From: Halofilum ochraceum
Lineage (GTDB): Bacteria; Pseudomonadota; Gammaproteobacteria; XJ16; Halofilaceae
Length of the DNA: 64,000 nt
Assembly (NCBI RefSeq): GCF_001614315.2
Contig: NZ_LVEG02000004.1
Coordinates: forward strand, 186,001 to 250,000
Reading direction: 5' to 3'
This document shows positions 10,633 to 33,087 of the stretch, piece by piece. Both the position numbers and the translations under genes were made by a program. The first letter of the stretch is position 1. The number at the start of each line of letters is the position of its first letter. Below the pieces are notes generated by a model. It searched no databases. It saw only the letters and a list, made by a program, of their open reading frames with translations, and had not been told where the DNA came from.

Positions 10633-10741
10633 GGGGTGGCACTTCTCGTGGATTCTGGGGCGTGTCAGAAGGGGGGAACCGGCCGCCGCACCGCGTAGGG
10701 CTCCGTGATCCTTATCCGTTCGGGACATCTCTTGCCGGCTC

Positions 10742-10819
10742 ATCGCGAGCAAGCTCGCTCCTACAGTTGCACCTGAACCACGGTGGCAGGATTCATGTAG
10801 GAGCGAGCTTGCTCGCGAT
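10742..10819. repeat. Paired REP/BIME-like element (inverted 23-mers, 32-bp spacer)
   Basis: An inverted pair of a 23-mer beginning GTAGGAGCGAGCTTGC, at 10742-10764 and 10797-10819, separated by 32 bases ending GGTGGCAGGATTCAT. The 57870-57947 pair has the same 23-mer, spacer length and spacer end. The 23-mer resembles REP sequences common in pseudomonads. The 346-base gap after recQ holds this element, the 99-bp repeat, and nothing else I could identify. Confidence 0.85.
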
Positions 10820-10842
10820 CGTATCCGCGCGTGCCAACTTAC

Positions 10843-11367
10843 TTAGTCCCCTGGCTGCCTGTACACGAGTTCATGCGCGACCTGGAGCCGGTCGTTGCGC
10901 AGCGCCATGACGATCTTCCCCCGCTCGGTCCGCCACTCGCTGTAATAGACCAGATGCCCGGCGGCGACCGCGTCGCCGTAGCGATCCGGTTCGTCGGCCA
11001 GCATTCGGTTGCGCCACATCATGCGATCGTACCGGGGCATGCCGTGGCGCTCGATGAGGTCGGATTTGAGCCGCTCGTAGTCGTCGATATAGCGGTTGTC
11101 GTCTTCATGCGCCGCGCGGTTGAACCAGTGCGTGGCCTCCAGTCCGTCCGCACCGAACCGGTAGCTCAGCGTCAGCGGGATTCCGGCGCGCTCGACGTGA
11201 TACACGAGCCGGTCGGCCGGGGCGACGACCGGTTCGTCCGGCTCGGCCGCCAGCACCTCGGCGCGCGGCGTCCCCCATGCGAATGCGCGCGTCTCCGGCG
11301 GTGGCGGCGGGGTCGTGGTGCAGGCGGCAAGCAACAGCAGCAGGGCGATGATCGCGATCGGGCGCAT
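10843..11367 (-). CDS. Predicted lipoprotein, function unknown
   Basis: A 174-residue protein with a lipoprotein signal (IAIIALLLLLAAC; lipidated Cys at about 16), then a proline stretch (TTTPPPPP) and a soluble domain with no family I recognise (AFAWGTPRAEVLAAE, SYRFGADGLEATHWFN, ERHGMPRYDRMMW, YYSEWRTERGKIVMALRN). The pattern of paired strands and a W-G-xP-x-x-x-V start resembles small periplasmic lipoproteins that are often left as hypothetical. AAGGAA precedes ATG 11365-11367. Divergent from the rhomboid gene. Confidence 0.8.
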   Translation of the reverse strand: MRPIAIIALLLLLAACTTTPPPPPETRAFAWGTPRAEVLAAEPDEPVVAPADRLVYHVERAGIPLTLSYRFGADGLEATHWFNRAAHEDDNRYIDDYERLKSDLIERHGMPRYDRMMWRNRMLADEPDRYGDAVAAGHLVYYSEWRTERGKIVMALRNDRLQVAHELVYRQPGD

Positions 11368-11572
11368 GGTGGATTCCTTCAGCGGGTCGGAGCGGGTGTC
11401 GGACCCCGATCGATACACCGGATGGCGCGGGTACGCAAATCGTTCATCCGGCGCGCCGAGCGCTGGCGTAGTCCGGGTGCCCGCGCTACCGTATCGCAGT
11501 CCGCCGGCCCGGCGTGCAATCCCGTCGGTGCGTGCAGGGACGCGCGTCGACCATCGGCCATGGAAGATTAAT

Positions 11573-13051
11573 ATGCTGATCATACCGTTCGACCGCCCCA
11601 TCGACTGGCGCCGCCCACCGGTCGTCACGTTCGCGCTCGTGGCCGTCAACGTGCTGGTATTCCTCGGGTTCCAGCTCGATGACGGGCGCGAACTGCAGCG
11701 GGTGAAGACGTATTACTACGAATCCGGTCTCGCGGAGATCGAGCTGCCGCGGTATCGCGCCTGGCTCAAGGCACAGGGTGACGACCCGTTCGTGGAACAC
11801 TTCGGTGACCGCATCGACGATCCCGCTTCCCCCTGGTTCGGACGGATCGTCAGCGACGAGGCATTCACCCGGCGGCTCGAGGCTGGCAAGGTCATCGGGC
11901 CGGATCATCCCGAGTACGAGCGCTGGCAGCGCGGGCGCGAGGGGCTCGCGCAGCGCCTCGATCAGACGACCGTCTGGGGCCATGGGCTGCGCCCGGCGGA
12001 GTCCGCGCCGACCACCTTCCTGACTCACATGTTCCTGCACGGTGGCTGGTTTCACCTGATCGGCAACATGCTCTTTCTGATTACGCTCGGGCTGCTCGTC
12101 GAGGTCGCGCTGGGCAGTCTCGTGCTGACCGGCCTCTATGTGCTCTCGGGTTTCGGGGCGGCGGGGCTGTTCATCGCCCTGCAGCCGCAGGGTCTGATGC
12201 CCCTGGTCGGCGCCTCCGGCGCCGTCGCGGGGCTGGTGGGTCTGTGCGGCGTGCTGTACGGCCTGCGCCGGATCCGGTTTTTCTACTTCATCGGTTTCTA
12301 CTTCGACTACGTCAAGGCACCGGCCCTCGTCCTGCTCGGGCTCTGGCTCGGCAAGGAGGTATACCAGTACATCCGGTTCTCGGAGTTGAGCAACGTGGCG
12401 TTTACCGCACATATCGGCGGGATCCTGACCGGAGCGCTTGCGGGTGCCGCCGTGCGTTTCGGGACCAACGCGGTCGATGAAGAGGCGATGGACGAGCGTG
12501 AGCGCACCGAGGCGTTCGAGCGCGAACTGGGTGCAGCCCATGAGCGGCTGGCAGCGATGGAGCCGGACCGCGCGCGGCCGCTGTTCGAGCGCATGGTACG
12601 TAACTGGCCCGACAACGTCCGGGTGCTGGACGGCCTGTTCCGCGCCAGCCGCTTCGCGCCCGCCAGCGACGCGTATCACGATGCCGTCCATCGGATTCTG
12701 CGGCTGGAACCGACCGATGACGAGACCGCGGAACTCATGGTCACGGCCTTCCGCGATTACCGTCGGCGCGCGCGGCCGAAACCGAAGATCGGTGGCGCCG
12801 TGTTGGAGCGGATGATCGATCTGTTGCTGCGCCGCGGAAGCGCCGAGGAGGTGGCCCCGCTCGTCCAGGCCGCCCTCAAGCACCCGCAGCGGTTCAACGG
12901 GATCGAGGAGAGCGCGATCCGGCTCGCGCGCAAGTATCAGCGTGAAGGTGAGCGCGCGCGGGCACGATCGCTATACCACTATGTGCTGCAGCACTTCGCG
13001 GACACGGCGGCCGCGCGCCAGGCGGAGCGAGCCCTGACGGAAGTCCGCTAG
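11573..13051 (+). CDS. Rhomboid-family intramembrane protease with long C-terminal domain
   Basis: A 492-residue protein. The membrane core (about residues 17-300) has the rhomboid signature: HMFLHGGWFHLIGNMLFL with the oxyanion Asn, GASGAVAG with nucleophile Ser215, and AHIGG with His280, forming the Ser-His dyad. Between the first membrane helix and the HGGWFHL motif lies an insert of about 115 residues (40-150), larger than usual. After the core, residues 310-492 form a helical domain with TPR-like repeats (LEPTDDETAELMVTAF..., LVQAALKHPQRFNG...). Substrate unknown. It is too long and multi-domain to be a typical rhombosortase. GGAAG precedes ATG 11573. Confidence 0.88.
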   Translation: MLIIPFDRPIDWRRPPVVTFALVAVNVLVFLGFQLDDGRELQRVKTYYYESGLAEIELPRYRAWLKAQGDDPFVEHFGDRIDDPASPWFGRIVSDEAFTRRLEAGKVIGPDHPEYERWQRGREGLAQRLDQTTVWGHGLRPAESAPTTFLTHMFLHGGWFHLIGNMLFLITLGLLVEVALGSLVLTGLYVLSGFGAAGLFIALQPQGLMPLVGASGAVAGLVGLCGVLYGLRRIRFFYFIGFYFDYVKAPALVLLGLWLGKEVYQYIRFSELSNVAFTAHIGGILTGALAGAAVRFGTNAVDEEAMDERERTEAFERELGAAHERLAAMEPDRARPLFERMVRNWPDNVRVLDGLFRASRFAPASDAYHDAVHRILRLEPTDDETAELMVTAFRDYRRRARPKPKIGGAVLERMIDLLLRRGSAEEVAPLVQAALKHPQRFNGIEESAIRLARKYQREGERARARSLYHYVLQHFADTAAARQAERALTEVR

Positions 13052-13056
13052 GGAGA

Positions 13057-13139
13057 CTCTGATTTACACCGGCCAGCGCGTTGGGGAATGATGTAGGTCG
13101 GGCTTCCAGCCCGACCTACAGGATTCCCACTAATCAGAG
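13057..13139. repeat. Nested palindromic element (GTAGGTCGGGCT class)
   Basis: Core hairpin 13093-13119 (GTAGGTCGGGCT, TCC loop, AGCCCGACCTAC) inside an outer inverted pair CTCTGATT/AATCAGAG at 13057-13064 and 13132-13139. Flanks such as ACCGGCCAGC...GTTGGG and GGATTCCC recur around 44335-44445. It sits between two convergent genes and may end both transcripts, though there is no T run. Confidence 0.8.
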
Positions 13140-13152
13140 GCCCCTACCCCTA

Positions 13153-14445
13153 CTACCCGGTAAGCGCGTCCCGCAGCGCCTGCGCGCGGCCCGCTGCCGG
13201 ATGATCGGGGAACCGCTTGATCAGGAAATCGGCAACCTGGCGCGCCTTGTCGGGCTGTTGCAGGAAATCCGAGAAGATCCGTGCGACCTCCAGGTACAGC
13301 GGCGGAATAAACGGGCTCTCGGGGAAATCCTTGTGGAAGCCGTTGGCCATGCGCACGGCCCGGCGGTATTCCCCGCGCTGCACGAGCATGTTCATCAGCG
13401 GTTCGTAATCCGTTTCCCGTGCCGGGCGCAGGCCGGGGTCGATATCGGTGATATCGATGAAGACCTCGGTCGCCTCGCGCAGCCGGTTGGCGTCGATCAA
13501 TTCGCTCAGCAGGGTGCCGGCATTGTCGACCTGTGCATCCTCGTCGTCGGTGAGTTTGAGCACCTGGTGGCGTTGCTGGCGCAGTTCGATCGCGTGGTCG
13601 GGGTGCTCGCGGATCAGGCTGCGCAGGCGCTGGGCGGCGGATTCGTAATTCCCGCCCTCGATATCTTCATCGACCGGATCGAGCAGTTCGCCCCAGCCGT
13701 CATCGGCGTCCGCGAGTGTATCCGGCGCGTAGCCGACGCGGTCGTGATACTGGAAGATCAGATACCCCATCAAATTCATCATGGTGAAGAAGAAGAGGTT
13801 CTGGAAGAAGGTGCTCAGGAACGCCTGGGCCGCCAGCGGGAGGTCCTGGCCGAACAGGGACATGACCGTGCCCGCCCCGCCATTGAGCAGCAGGAGCAGC
13901 CCGAGCACGGCGAAATACGGCCAGCCGATGCGAAAGGCGATGCCGAACAGGGTTGCCGGATTGAGGGCGGCGAAGACCGAGCGTTCCAGCGCCAGCGTCA
14001 TGACGATCGCCGGGAACAGGGCGGCCACGCATATGCCGTAAACGATAAAGCCCACGAAGGTCAGCGCGGGGGGCAGGATGATCGCCATGAGCCATGCGGC
14101 CAGACCGAGCAGTATGAATACGGCGATCTGCTTGAACGGCAGTTCGTAACCATCCAGCAGCGTTTCCTGATTGAGCCGCGGGGGCAGTGTATGGCCGTTC
14201 GCGGTCCGCTCCAGGATATCGTAGCCGTACTTGATCGAGAACACCGCCGCGACCACCGATACGATCAGCCCGACCACGAAGCCGAAGCCGCCGGCTTGCA
14301 TCAGATCGAGCACGGTGGCGTTGGCGACTGCGAGCACCAGCAGGACGTACAGGCCCGGCGGCGTCAGCGGATAGAGAAAGAACCGCGGCATCCGGTTCCA
14401 GAACGGGGTGATCGTGACCGGTTGGCGTCGCGTCCGTAGCGACAT
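13153..14445 (-). CDS. Multi-pass membrane protein with C-terminal TPR-like tail
   Basis: A 430-residue protein. The first 240 residues hold about six membrane segments (for example YVLLVLAVANATVLDLM, FGFVVGLIVSVVAAVF, IAVFILLGLAAWLMAIIL, FVGFIVYGICVAALFPAIVM, YFAVLGLLLLLNGG, FFFTMMNLMGYLIFQY), a layout like DUF4013-type proteins. The rest is soluble and helical with tetratricopeptide character (YESAAQRLRSLIREHPDHA, GEYRRAVRMANGFHKDFPESP, KARQVADFLIKRFPDHP). Function unknown; the tail suggests protein partners. GGAGA lies upstream of ATG 14443-14445. Confidence 0.82.
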   Translation of the reverse strand: MSLRTRRQPVTITPFWNRMPRFFLYPLTPPGLYVLLVLAVANATVLDLMQAGGFGFVVGLIVSVVAAVFSIKYGYDILERTANGHTLPPRLNQETLLDGYELPFKQIAVFILLGLAAWLMAIILPPALTFVGFIVYGICVAALFPAIVMTLALERSVFAALNPATLFGIAFRIGWPYFAVLGLLLLLNGGAGTVMSLFGQDLPLAAQAFLSTFFQNLFFFTMMNLMGYLIFQYHDRVGYAPDTLADADDGWGELLDPVDEDIEGGNYESAAQRLRSLIREHPDHAIELRQQRHQVLKLTDDEDAQVDNAGTLLSELIDANRLREATEVFIDITDIDPGLRPARETDYEPLMNMLVQRGEYRRAVRMANGFHKDFPESPFIPPLYLEVARIFSDFLQQPDKARQVADFLIKRFPDHPAAGRAQALRDALTG

Positions 14446-29144: not shown

Positions 29145-29939
29145 TCATACCGCGACCGCGCGGCGCCGCCATGTAATGCCCAGCAACGCGGCGAGGAATA
29201 CTAGTGTTGGCACGCCCAATAAGCCACCACCACCGCCGCCGCCACCAGTGCTACCGCCGCCATCACGGGAGACCCGACGTTCAAGTGCGGCGACCTCTCC
29301 TTCCAGTTCATCGAGCCGGTCGTTGATGCCGCTTACCGATCCAAGCACGCCTTCTTCGAGTTGCCGTTTTATCAGTGCATCGGTTTCCTGCATGGCCGCC
29401 GCGACGTTGGCGAGTCGGCGTTGCACGAACTCGCTGCCCAGGGAAACCACTCCCTCGACCAGTTCACTGTCACGCCCGATCGCGACCGCGTCACGACTGC
29501 CGTTCGCCGAGGTCGATGGACCGATACGCAGCACGTGTTTGCCCAGAATGTCGTTACCGCCGTCGTCCGGCGAAGGGTCGAGCGACCGGAGCGTAAAACC
29601 GAAATACGTCTGGGGATTCTTGGCGCCGCTGTAATCGTTCGCGAGCAGAGACCAGGAATTCCCGAGCCCGTCCTCCCCAACGCCCGCCGTGCTGTCGAGG
29701 AACCGCATACGTAAGACATCTGCCTCCAGTCGAGTTTCCCCGTCGTTGGCGGGCGTGCTGCAGTTGCTGCCGTCGGACTCCGCGACGAAGTCGATACACA
29801 GAGATTGCGCGCGCAGATCCCCATGGATCACCGGCCCGACCGCCGTAGCCGTGCCGGCAAAGGCGCTCAGGCTTGACAGCACTCCGATGAGTACCCAAGG
29901 GGGCGGACGGTTACGCAGTTTATTGTCATGCGTTTTCAT
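29145..29939 (-). CDS. Exported protein with GlyGly-CTERM-like sorting tail
   Basis: A 264-residue protein: signal peptide at about 1-33 (WVLIGVLSSLSAFAGTATA), a beta-rich passenger domain (IHGDLRAQSLCIDFVAES, ADVLRMRFLDSTAGVGEDG, NSWSLLANDYSG), a coiled coil (RLDELEGEVAALERRVSRDG) and a tail of about eight glycines, a hydrophobic segment (LLGVPTLVFLAALLGITW) and a basic end (RRRAVAV). This Gly-run/helix/Arg order is the GlyGly-CTERM sorting pattern, cleaved by rhombosortase in other bacteria. Starts one base after the stop of 29941-30588, so the two are coupled and share passenger character. Confidence 0.8.
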   Translation of the reverse strand: MKTHDNKLRNRPPPWVLIGVLSSLSAFAGTATAVGPVIHGDLRAQSLCIDFVAESDGSNCSTPANDGETRLEADVLRMRFLDSTAGVGEDGLGNSWSLLANDYSGAKNPQTYFGFTLRSLDPSPDDGGNDILGKHVLRIGPSTSANGSRDAVAIGRDSELVEGVVSLGSEFVQRRLANVAAAMQETDALIKRQLEEGVLGSVSGINDRLDELEGEVAALERRVSRDGGGSTGGGGGGGGLLGVPTLVFLAALLGITWRRRAVAV

Positions 29940-29940
29940 G

Positions 29941-30588
29941 TCACTGCATCTCCCGCGCGAGTCGATCGATCCGCTCGGCGAGGTCGTCGATCCGAGTATT
30001 GATCTCTTGCAGTTCCGTCTCCAACGCCTCGGCATCCGTGCCCACCGAGGCGAGCACGTCCGCCTGGAACTCATCGAACTGGCGTTTGTTGACCGCGTCC
30101 GTGTCAGCCTCGGCGTCCGCCACCCAAGTCACCCGGCGCTCGCTTCCGTCCGCACCCACGGAGACCACGTACGCGTTGTCACCCAGTGCGGCACCCGCTC
30201 CCAGGGCGACCCGCCCATCCGTGGTCATCCTCAACACCTCTGCGCCGGAGACCTCGTCGCGAATGAAGAACTCGCTGAAGCCGCCGGTGCCATTGTCGTC
30301 GGTGATACCGATGGACCAGTCGGTGTCGGTCCCGTCGTTCGAACGATCGATCATGGACAGCACTGGTTCGCTGTCGTGGATCCGGAGGCCGTCGAACGGG
30401 AAGGAGTCGCTCGTGCACTTGGTACCTACACAGGCTGCTCCCTTGACGATCAGGTCGCCGGCGACCTCTTCGGCGATCGCCGACGTGGCAGGCAACGCAC
30501 CGAGCAGGGCTACAAGTAAATACGGAGCCGCCCAATACGCGGTCGCACGTTTGCGTAAAACATCGGTTGTTGCTTCAAGGCTTTCCAT
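29941..30588 (-). CDS. Exported beta-rich protein with C-terminal coiled coil
   Basis: A 215-residue protein, signal peptide at about 20-40 (YLLVALLGALPATSAIA), then EVAGDLIVKGAACVGTKCTSDSFPFDGLRIHDSEPVLSMIDRS..., a pattern (DLxVKGxxCVGxxC...FxFDxLRxxxN) known from large bacterial surface proteins with tail-fibre-like ends. It ends in a trimerisation-like module (WVADAEADTDAVNKRQFDEFQADVLASVG, then a helical coiled coil DDLAERIDRLAREM). It lacks the GlyGly tail of its partner. CGGGAA lies upstream of ATG 30586-30588. Probably a two-protein surface complex with 29145-29939. Confidence 0.8.
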   Translation of the reverse strand: MESLEATTDVLRKRATAYWAAPYLLVALLGALPATSAIAEEVAGDLIVKGAACVGTKCTSDSFPFDGLRIHDSEPVLSMIDRSNDGTDTDWSIGITDDNGTGGFSEFFIRDEVSGAEVLRMTTDGRVALGAGAALGDNAYVVSVGADGSERRVTWVADAEADTDAVNKRQFDEFQADVLASVGTDAEALETELQEINTRIDDLAERIDRLAREMQ

Positions 30589-30988
30589 GATTCCCGATCC
30601 AGTCGTTCCGTGCCCCTTGACGAAAGTGTCGGGGCAACCCCGGTCGTGTTCATATCACGCACTCCAGGAAGATAGACGGGAATTCGGGCATGTGAAGGAA
30701 AATTTTTCGAGCAGGACTGAAAATGCCGTTGGCAGGCAGGGCGTGCGGATTTGGCGCGAAACGAGCGTGCACGACGTGCTTTCGACGAAAACAAGCCTCA
30801 ATTGTTCAGGTGGATGCGCGGTTCGCCTTCGGCGAAAATGCGCCTGGGCGGTCTTGTTCAGCGCTTCGGTCAGGGACGAAAACTATTCTCCCTTTGCGTT
30901 CTGGGGCGAGGTTATGCAGGGGGTGCACTGCGGCCCGTGTGACTCCTGCTGGCAGGTGGTTCGGAGAACCACGAACGCACCGTGCAAT
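30589..30988. other. Gene-free stretch upstream of the surface-protein pair
   Basis: Four hundred bases between the sucD terminator and the surface-protein gene. Open frames here have atypical composition (many Arg/Ser/Cys) and no recognisable protein. A hairpin TTCGCC/GGCGAA occurs near 30827 and CGGGGCAACCCCGG near 30629. The stretch should hold the promoter for 29941-30588, but I see no convincing boxes. Confidence 0.4.
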
Positions 30989-31018
30989 AAAAAAGCCGCC
31001 GCGGCGGACCGCGACGGC
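30989..31018 (-). terminator. Intrinsic terminator after sucD
   Basis: Minus-strand stem GCCGTCGCGG/CCGCGGCGGC (one G-U pair, 10 bp), four-base loop, then six T (A run at 30989-30994). It lies 28 bases after the sucD stop and ends the suc operon. Confidence 0.88.
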
Positions 31019-31045
31019 TTCGGTGGGAGCGTATGTCCCGCAGTG

Positions 31046-31918
31046 TTACCAGCCGGTCGCCTCGGCCACGCCCTTGCCGATGTCGGCCGGGCTTTTCACC
31101 GTGACGACACCCGCCTTTTCCAGCGCGGCGTATTTCTCGGCCGCCGTGCCCTTGCCGCCCGCGATGATCGCGCCGGCATGGCCCATGCGTTTGCCCTTGG
31201 GCGCCGAGACCCCGGCGATATAGGCAACGACCGGTTTGGTTACATGCTGCTGGATGAACTCCGCCGCCTCTTCCTCGGCGGTGCCGCCGATCTCGCCGAC
31301 CATGACGATCGCCTCGGTCTTCGGGTCGGCCTCGAACAGTTCCAGGGCGTCGATGAAGTTGGTGCCCGGGATCGGATCGCCGCCGATGCCGATGCAGGTG
31401 CTCTGCCCATACCCCGGATCGGTGGTCTGCTTGACGCACTCGTAGGTGAGCGTGCCCGAGCGCGAGACGATGCCGACCTTGCCGGGCTTGTGGATCTCGC
31501 CGGGCATGATGCCGATCTTGCATTCGCCGGGCGTGATGATGCCGGGGCAGTTCGGGCCGATCAGGCGTGAATCGGTCTGGTCGATGTAGGCCTTGGCCTG
31601 GAGCATGTCCAGGGTCGGGATGCCCTCGGTGATGCACACGATCAGTTTCACGCCGGCCTCCGCCGCTTCCACGATCGAGTCCTTGCAGAAGGGCGCGGGG
31701 ACGTAGATCACGCTGGCATCGGCACCAGTGGCCTCGACGCCTTCCGCGACCGTGTTGAACACCGGCAGATCGAGGTGCGTGGTGCCACCCTTGCCGGGCG
31801 TGATGCCGCCGACCATCTGCGTGCCGTAGGCGATCGACTGTTCACTGTGGAAGGTGCCCTGTTTGCCGGTAAAACCCTGGCAGAGGACCTTCGTGTTGCT
31901 GTTGACGAGCACTGACAT
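31046..31918 (-). CDS. sucD: Succinyl-CoA synthetase alpha subunit
   Basis: A 290-residue protein of normal length. CoA-binding domain starts [26 protein letters not shown]; the ligase half has [21 protein letters not shown] and the phosphorylated active-site His in [14 protein letters not shown]. With SucC it converts succinyl-CoA to succinate while making ATP or GTP. Two bases after sucC; last gene of the leftward suc operon. Confidence 0.96.
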
Positions 31919-31920
31919 GA

Positions 31921-33087
31921 TTATTTGCCCTCCGCGGCGGCGATGACGCGCTTCGCGGCGTCGGTGAGGCTGTCGGCGGCGATGACGTTGAACGAGGACT
32001 GGTTCAGCAGTTCCGCGCCCTTGTCGGCCTGGTTGCCCTCCAGGCGGACGACCACCGGGAGTTCGAGACCGACTTCTTCCACCGCGGTGATGATGCCTTC
32101 GGCGATCAGGTCGCAGCGGACGATGCCGCCGAAGATGTTCACCAGGATGGCCTTTACGTTCTCGTCGGAGACGATGATCTTGAATGCCTCGGCGACGCGC
32201 TCGGCGGTAGCGCCGCCGCCGACGTCGAGGAAGTTGGCCGGGTCGCCGCCATGGAGTTTGACAAGATCCATGGTCGCCATCGCGAGACCGGCGCCATTGA
32301 CCATGCAGCCGATGTTGCCGTCCAGTGCGATGTAGTTGAGGTCCCATTCCTTGGCGCGGTTCTCGCGCTCGTCTTCCTGGGTCTGATCGCGCAGCTCGCC
32401 GATATCGCTGTGGCGATAGACCGCGTTGTCATCGACGTTGATCTTGCCGTCGAGGCAGATCAGGTCGCCCTTGCCGGTAATGACCAGCGGGTTGACTTCG
32501 ATCAGGCTCAGATCCTTGTCGATGAAAAGTTTGCCGAGCGCGGTCAGCAGCTTCGCGAACTGCTTGATCTGGTCGGCGTTCAGTCCGAGCGCGAATGCGA
32601 GCTGGCGGCACTGGTAGGGCATGACGCCGAGCATCGGATGGACGATCGCCTGGTGGATCTTCTCCGGTGTCTCGCTGGCTACCTTTTCGATCTCGACACC
32701 GCCTTCCGTCGAGGCCATGAACACGACGCGCTGCGTGCCGCGGTCGACTACGGCCCCGAGGTAGAGCTCGGTCGCGATGTCACTGGTCTCCTCGATGAGC
32801 ACGCGCCGTACCGGTTGGCCGCGTTCGTCCGTCTGGTAGGTGACCAGGTTCCTGCCGAGCATCCGGCCGGCGGCCTCGGTTGCGGCGTCGGCGTCGTCGA
32901 CCAGTTCGACACCCCCGGCTTTGCCGCGGCCGCCCGCGTGGACCTGTGCCTTGACGACCCATTTCTTGCCGGCGAGTTCGCGCACGGCGTTGGCGGCTTC
33001 CGATTTGTCATGGATGACAATGCCATTGGGCACCGGGATGTTGTACTGGCGGAACAACTGTTTCGCCTGGTATTCATGCAGATTCAT
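31921..33087 (-). CDS. sucC: Succinyl-CoA synthetase beta subunit
   Basis: A 388-residue ATP-grasp protein starting [22 protein letters not shown], as is standard. Nucleotide-binding region [15 protein letters not shown] and the C-terminal CoA-ligase domain with [16 protein letters not shown] are intact. It pairs with SucD in the TCA cycle. Length is normal. Separated from lpd by a 357-base repeat-filled gap. Confidence 0.96.

Follow-up and report, generated by a model that had tools for sequence, protein, structure and literature searches.

The closest described counterparts of the gene pair analysed here belong to two surface-protein systems, the GlyGly-CTERM proteins that are processed by rhombosortase and the trimeric autotransporter adhesins. 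Among the former, S8/S53 proteases constitute a published cargo class, and the processing enzyme has the published active-site signature SGMLH (PMC3237569). The authors of the curated tail model, TIGR03501, point out that it cannot find true examples exhaustively, and they report that weak tails were promoted where full-length homology supported them (Haft and Varghese 2011, PMC3237569). For the V. cholerae protein VesB, surface localisation is described as requiring the tail, rhombosortase and the type II secretion system, with VesB acquiring a glycerophosphoethanolamine-containing moiety (PMC6219818). A later proposal treats the tail as an independent motif by which cargo is held at the inner membrane (PMC13393428).

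In the window (the 64,000-nucleotide stretch of Halofilum ochraceum DNA analysed here), positions 29145-30588 on the minus strand hold two adjoining open reading frames, A followed by B, within the limits that a previous, sequence-only reading had given correctly. Gene A (29941-30588, minus strand) encodes a probable secreted protein of 215 amino acids with a signal-peptide-like N-terminus (judged by eye), a head, and a YadA-type neck and coiled coil, without an anchor; gene B (29145-29939, minus strand) encodes a probable secreted protein of 264 amino acids that repeats the architecture of A and adds a tail in which a glycine run is followed by a single hydrophobic segment and three arginines. 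The N-terminus of B is hydrophobic with an AXA-type site, and by eye the protein has no further long hydrophobic segment besides the tail. The start codon of B is the ATG at 29939, separated by a single nucleotide (C) from the TGA stop codon of A; a mechanically called 309-amino-acid version of B beginning at 30074 overlaps A and is an unlikely start. The 1-nt gap suggests that A and B may be translationally coupled; the corresponding gap measures 16 nt, as against 1 nt in the window, in a second genome of the same class and another family (G074), which has retained the pair in the same order, again with the tail on B only, at 42% (A) and 40% (B) identity. The pair is flanked by sucCD (31046-33087, same strand) and by a convergent ACT-domain gene, beyond which lies a histone-deacetylase-family gene. 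It probably has its own transcript, apart from sucCD, because a terminator-like hairpin with a T-run follows sucD (30992-31021, minus strand) and a promoter-like site lies upstream of A. The latter, a sigma-70-like candidate approximately 80 nt 5' of A (30669-30696, minus strand; TTCACA-16-TATCTT, 9/12), and the hairpin are consensus matches only; the promoter consensus scan found two sites vs. 0.5 expected, and the terminator scan of the region two vs. 2.6 in shuffles, i.e., no excess. The gene upstream of the pair is sucD in the window vs. a classical autotransporter in G074 (L018:11214-14657 on contig C7, minus strand; 1147 amino acids, PF03797, PATR repeats), which shares the strand of A and lies 97 nt upstream of it.

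A and B, both apparently secreted, are homologous to each other, with similarity extending along head and stalk (BLASTP 2e-8; 26% identity over the local alignment). The head module was delimited in a ten-row alignment that included six other proteins of the class; it spans approximately residues 40-122 of A (30223-30471, minus strand; DLIV.G..C.G..C ... D..W ... GG) and, in more divergent form, approximately residues 36-120 of B (29580-29834, minus strand), and across the class proteins it follows the pattern DDLIVxGSxCVGxDC...RLKENN.RI.F.DTS...W...GG...D. The heads were poorly predicted in the structural models (mean pLDDT 64 for A and 53 for B). The module is common to six other secreted proteins of the class (L027-L032; "DLIVQGSxCVGxDC"), two of which carry Peptidase_S74, the endosialidase-type chaperone (PF13884); these six proteins show neither a YadA-type neck nor a GlyGly tail. 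In all six the DLIVQGSxCVGxDC...RLKENN module is N-terminal, preceding C-termini that differ, and it had no Pfam match in the scans performed.

Downstream of the head, the neck motif and coiled coil of A occupy approximately residues 139-214 (29947-30174, minus strand), with the neck aspartate at register g and eight consecutive a/d hydrophobics; those of B (approximately residues 165-226; 29262-29447, minus strand) keep the register of A and are two heptads shorter. In each protein the run of eight a/d core hydrophobics was reached by 1 of 5000 shuffles. Against the PDB, a two-row profile of A retrieved trimeric autotransporter necks and stalks (4usx at 1.2e-11, 2yo0 at 3.6e-11) and B itself retrieved 2yo0 at 2.1e-8 (phmmer), so that the trimer-like end noted previously is real, both proteins matching solved structures of this kind; against Pfam YadA_stalk (PF05662), A scored 25.4 bits, slightly below the cut-off of 28.4. 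The YadA anchor barrel (PF03895) is absent from A and B in the Pfam scan, and a search of the source genome (G000), of two further genomes of its genus (G001 and G002) and of G074 returned no YadA_anchor match at E <= 0.01, with a positive E. coli control. Since the barrel was searched for and not found, the pair has the parts of a trimeric autotransporter and yet is not one. Necks and stalks of this type would also be expected if the pair were a degraded trimeric autotransporter that has lost its barrel or relies on another gene for it; this origin is highly improbable in view of the lack of a YadA_anchor match at E <= 0.01 in both genomes that carry the pair, the open and conserved state of A and B in both of them, and the classical kind (PF03797) of the autotransporter near the G074 pair.

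The tail of B covers residues 227-264 (29148-29261, minus strand) and reads GGGSTGGGGGGGG-LLGVPTLVFLAALLGITW-RRR-AVAV; a low-confidence structural model places a helix at residues 244-263. The glycine run, hydrophobic segment and RRR end belong to B alone, and A has no tail. The C-terminus of B has the tripartite form of a glycine-rich motif without cysteine, a hydrophobic segment and a basic cluster, and this form is rare in the window: one pattern for the tail architecture was found in 1 of 308 reading frames (about 100 amino acids or longer), and a second in 1 of 613 stop-to-stop stretches (60 amino acids or longer), compared to nine occurrences in 200 residue-shuffled sets of 613. Profile searches gave a different picture. 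TIGR03501 (cut-off 15.5 bits) did not match B at E <= 10, whether as whole protein, as tail or in the genome scan; the best NCBIfam match of the tail was JDVT-CTERM (NF033191) with 16.1 bits, below the cut-off of 27, and it covers the membrane part only (profile positions 20-35 of 35). A leave-one-out profile built from the other three tails of a four-tail set placed B first without composition correction, at 22.4 bits vs. 19.8 for the best of 1000 shuffled tails; with composition correction, B received 1.0 bit, which put it in 21st place among the 475 window stretches reported, and some shuffled tails scored higher, up to 7.7 bits. The architecture of the tail is real, and its recognition rests largely on composition. 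The sequence-only reading had called the tail GlyGly-CTERM-like, which holds for the tripartite architecture (1 of 613) and does not hold for recognition by the curated model or by the composition-corrected profile; the profile search of the tail that it had proposed as a check went against it, with no TIGR03501 match for B and rank 21 under correction.

Given this outcome, the tail could be a plain inner-membrane anchor, or the target of another rhomboid or sorting enzyme, in which case the fibre displayed by B would be periplasmic and rhombosortase would play no part. The curated GlyGly-CTERM model and the corrected profile, neither of which recognises the tail, are compatible with this alternative, as are other rhomboids in the genome and the weak JDVT-CTERM match of the membrane segment; it is nevertheless improbable, considering that a glycine run, a single hydrophobic segment and RRR stand at the extreme C-terminus of B, that both genomes with the pair also encode a rhombosortase, and that the tail of the G074 homologue, SGGGGSLSPLTLAALLLTWLVWRRR, comes nearer to the model. 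This homologue is the only full-length one of B, and its tail obtained 13.3 bits with TIGR03501 (cut-off 15.5).

The rhombosortase of the source genome (TIGR03902, 137.3 bits, cut-off 84; C1:439171-439629), present as the sequence-only reading had suggested looking for, is located on a different contig from the pair, and has SGVLH at the active site, where the published signature reads SGMLH, and EAHLYG downstream; the genome encodes further rhomboids besides. The window itself contains no rhombosortase, as had been stated: the sole rhomboid-like protein placed there scores 25.6-28.9 bits against the same cut-off. This protein (11201-13051, plus strand, 616 amino acids) has a rhomboid-like domain and is probably an ordinary rhomboid that is extended at its C-terminus. 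A type II secretin, GspD, is encoded on contig C9 (586 bits), the search for type II secretion genes having covered the secretin only. Five more secretin-type matches occur on contigs C11, C17, and C21.

Tails resembling that of B, again with a glycine run, a hydrophobic segment and a basic end, were found on two S8 subtilase-family proteins encoded 2.3 kb apart on contig C11 (L017:5823-8384 and 10692-13187, plus strand). The S8 domain is clear in one of them (161 bits) and a weak partial match in the other (22.6 bits, cut-off 21.8); with TIGR03501, the tail of the protein with the weaker S8 domain scored 14.3-14.5 bits and the other tail had no match (cut-off 15.5). Judged from their tails and family, both proteins are likely rhombosortase cargo. 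At default E, TIGR03501 had no match in the source genome or in 14 controls; at E <= 10 it gave five matches in the source genome, and only one of these, a subtilase-family protein (L009, 14.3 bits), has a C-terminal glycine tail. The remaining four were rejected: in L008, the sole match above the cut-off, the matched part is a membrane stretch inside the protein; L010 has a C-terminal hydrophobic stretch and arginines without a glycine run; L011 is an 89-amino-acid frame without a glycine run; and in L012 the match is internal. The expectation of other GlyGly-CTERM proteins in the genome is borne out in part, by two similar subtilase tails, none of which passes the curated cut-off. The sequence-only reading had staked itself on the genome not lacking both a rhombosortase and other proteins with such a tail; the genome has both, the tails by architecture and not by curated score.

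Beyond the source genome, full-length B was found only in G074, in draws of 94, 369, 54, and 398 genomes that overlap one another. There, the rhombosortase (138.7 bits) is encoded on the same contig as the pair, approximately 20 kb away. Sixteen further genomes had partial matches, the best reading frame in each being a head-module or trimeric-autotransporter-like protein by eye, with no terminal glycine tail. A named-genome scan with B matched 281 stretches, none of which was confirmed, and it also missed G074 and the source genome, so that its reach is uncertain; the same type of scan with A yielded 18 confirmed matches out of 138. By eye, 15 of these 18 resemble ordinary trimeric autotransporters, L054 having an extra coiled stretch at its end, and none of the 15 has a glycine tail; in the remaining three (L051, L053, and L059) the reading frame runs off the stored DNA. 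A plasmid search had no match, and a profile of the four tails recovered its own four rows and nine weaker partial matches in four genomes, none of them a C-terminal glycine tail. Rhombosortase exceeds the cut-off in 126 of 369 genomes of the class, the source genome and G074 included; the pair and rhombosortase occur together in both genomes that have the pair, an outcome with a probability of approximately 0.12 by chance, and this co-occurrence is weak evidence, since rhombosortase is common in the class. B is absent from the two other genomes of the genus, one of which (G001) has a rhombosortase without B. The second (G002, 99% complete) has no rhombosortase above the cut-off, unlike the source genome and G001, which could reflect loss or gain within the genus.

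Taken together with the published system, it is probable that B is a rhombosortase substrate. The route envisaged for the pair starts with an ancient duplication that would have produced two short fibre proteins, both exported by Sec; by means of the YadA-type neck and coiled coil, A and B would trimerise or co-trimerise without a trimeric-autotransporter barrel, and the C-terminal tail would park B in the inner membrane. Rhombosortase would then cut B at the glycines, the new end would obtain a lipid-type anchor, type II secretion would carry the folded assembly to the surface, and the tailless A would be kept there by coiled-coil contact with B. The toxin B subunit EtxB is an oligomeric protein. 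When fused to the VesB tail, EtxB is reported to remain with the cells (PMC6219818). A second signal, besides the tail, has been proposed to be needed for passage across the outer membrane (PMC13393428), which counts against export of B by its tail alone. The reading as a whole, with rhombosortase cleavage, lipid anchoring and type II export of B and with A retained via B, is the likeliest of those considered, at about even odds.

The assembly of A with B, one step of this reading, has an even chance of being correct. Contact between the two proteins is inferred because they are duplicates of each other, lie adjacent in a conserved order, carry the tail on one partner only and, in the window, match in coiled-coil register; the case is weakened because in G074 the register of B is shifted and differs from that of A. 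The same observations bear on a different arrangement, in which each protein trimerises only with itself, B being anchored at the surface through rhombosortase and A being released or periplasmic, each independent of the other. A and B are each equipped with a neck and a coiled coil, segments whose counterparts in known adhesins form trimers, the two proteins are just 26% identical over their local alignment, and the divergent register of B in G074 would also fit; adjacency, order and the one-partner tail, which two genomes from separate families have in common, and the shared register of A and B in the window argue in the other direction, and the homotrimer arrangement appears unlikely, although less so than a plain anchor. 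Within the preferred reading of a joint A-B assembly, a specific form can be suggested tentatively and with some doubt: a barrel-less mixed trimer of the YadA type, put together in the periplasm, in which only B is tagged, where one or two lipid anchors would hold a three-chain fibre delivered by the type II secretion system in place of autotransport.

In comparison with trimeric autotransporter adhesins, A and B have the same order of head, neck and coiled coil, and a neck and stalk similar to the solved structures; they differ in their very short stalk, their different head, and the lack of a PF03895 barrel. If the proposed route is correct, trimeric-adhesin modules here do without their own barrel and are directed by way of rhombosortase to type II secretion instead, and pairing with a tagged relative keeps a tagless protein at the surface; the pair would also offer a small natural system for testing whether subunits with and without the lipid tag share passage through the type II secretion system. 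In comparison with GlyGly-CTERM cargo, B has the glycine-rich motif without cysteine, the hydrophobic segment and the basic cluster that are described for these proteins (PMC3237569) and for VesB (PMC6219818), as well as, by eye, a signal-peptide-like N-terminus and, in the same genome, a rhombosortase and a type II secretin; its tail differs in remaining below the TIGR03501 cut-off. In short, B probably works like a GlyGly-CTERM protein while failing the curated membership score. No cargo of the trimeric-autotransporter or YadA kind was found by title for GlyGly-CTERM or PEP-CTERM proteins in the open-licence PMC literature, and the Pfam scan of B gave no recognised enzyme domain. The unusual point is accordingly the nature of the cargo: B is apparently a non-enzymatic protein of the GlyGly-CTERM type, to judge from its domains, and a fibre protein at that, whereas most known GlyGly-CTERM cargo is described as predicted hydrolytic (PMC13393428); and in contrast to known cargo, this short fibre protein comes as one of a pair, in which the tail is carried by one partner and the other is untagged.
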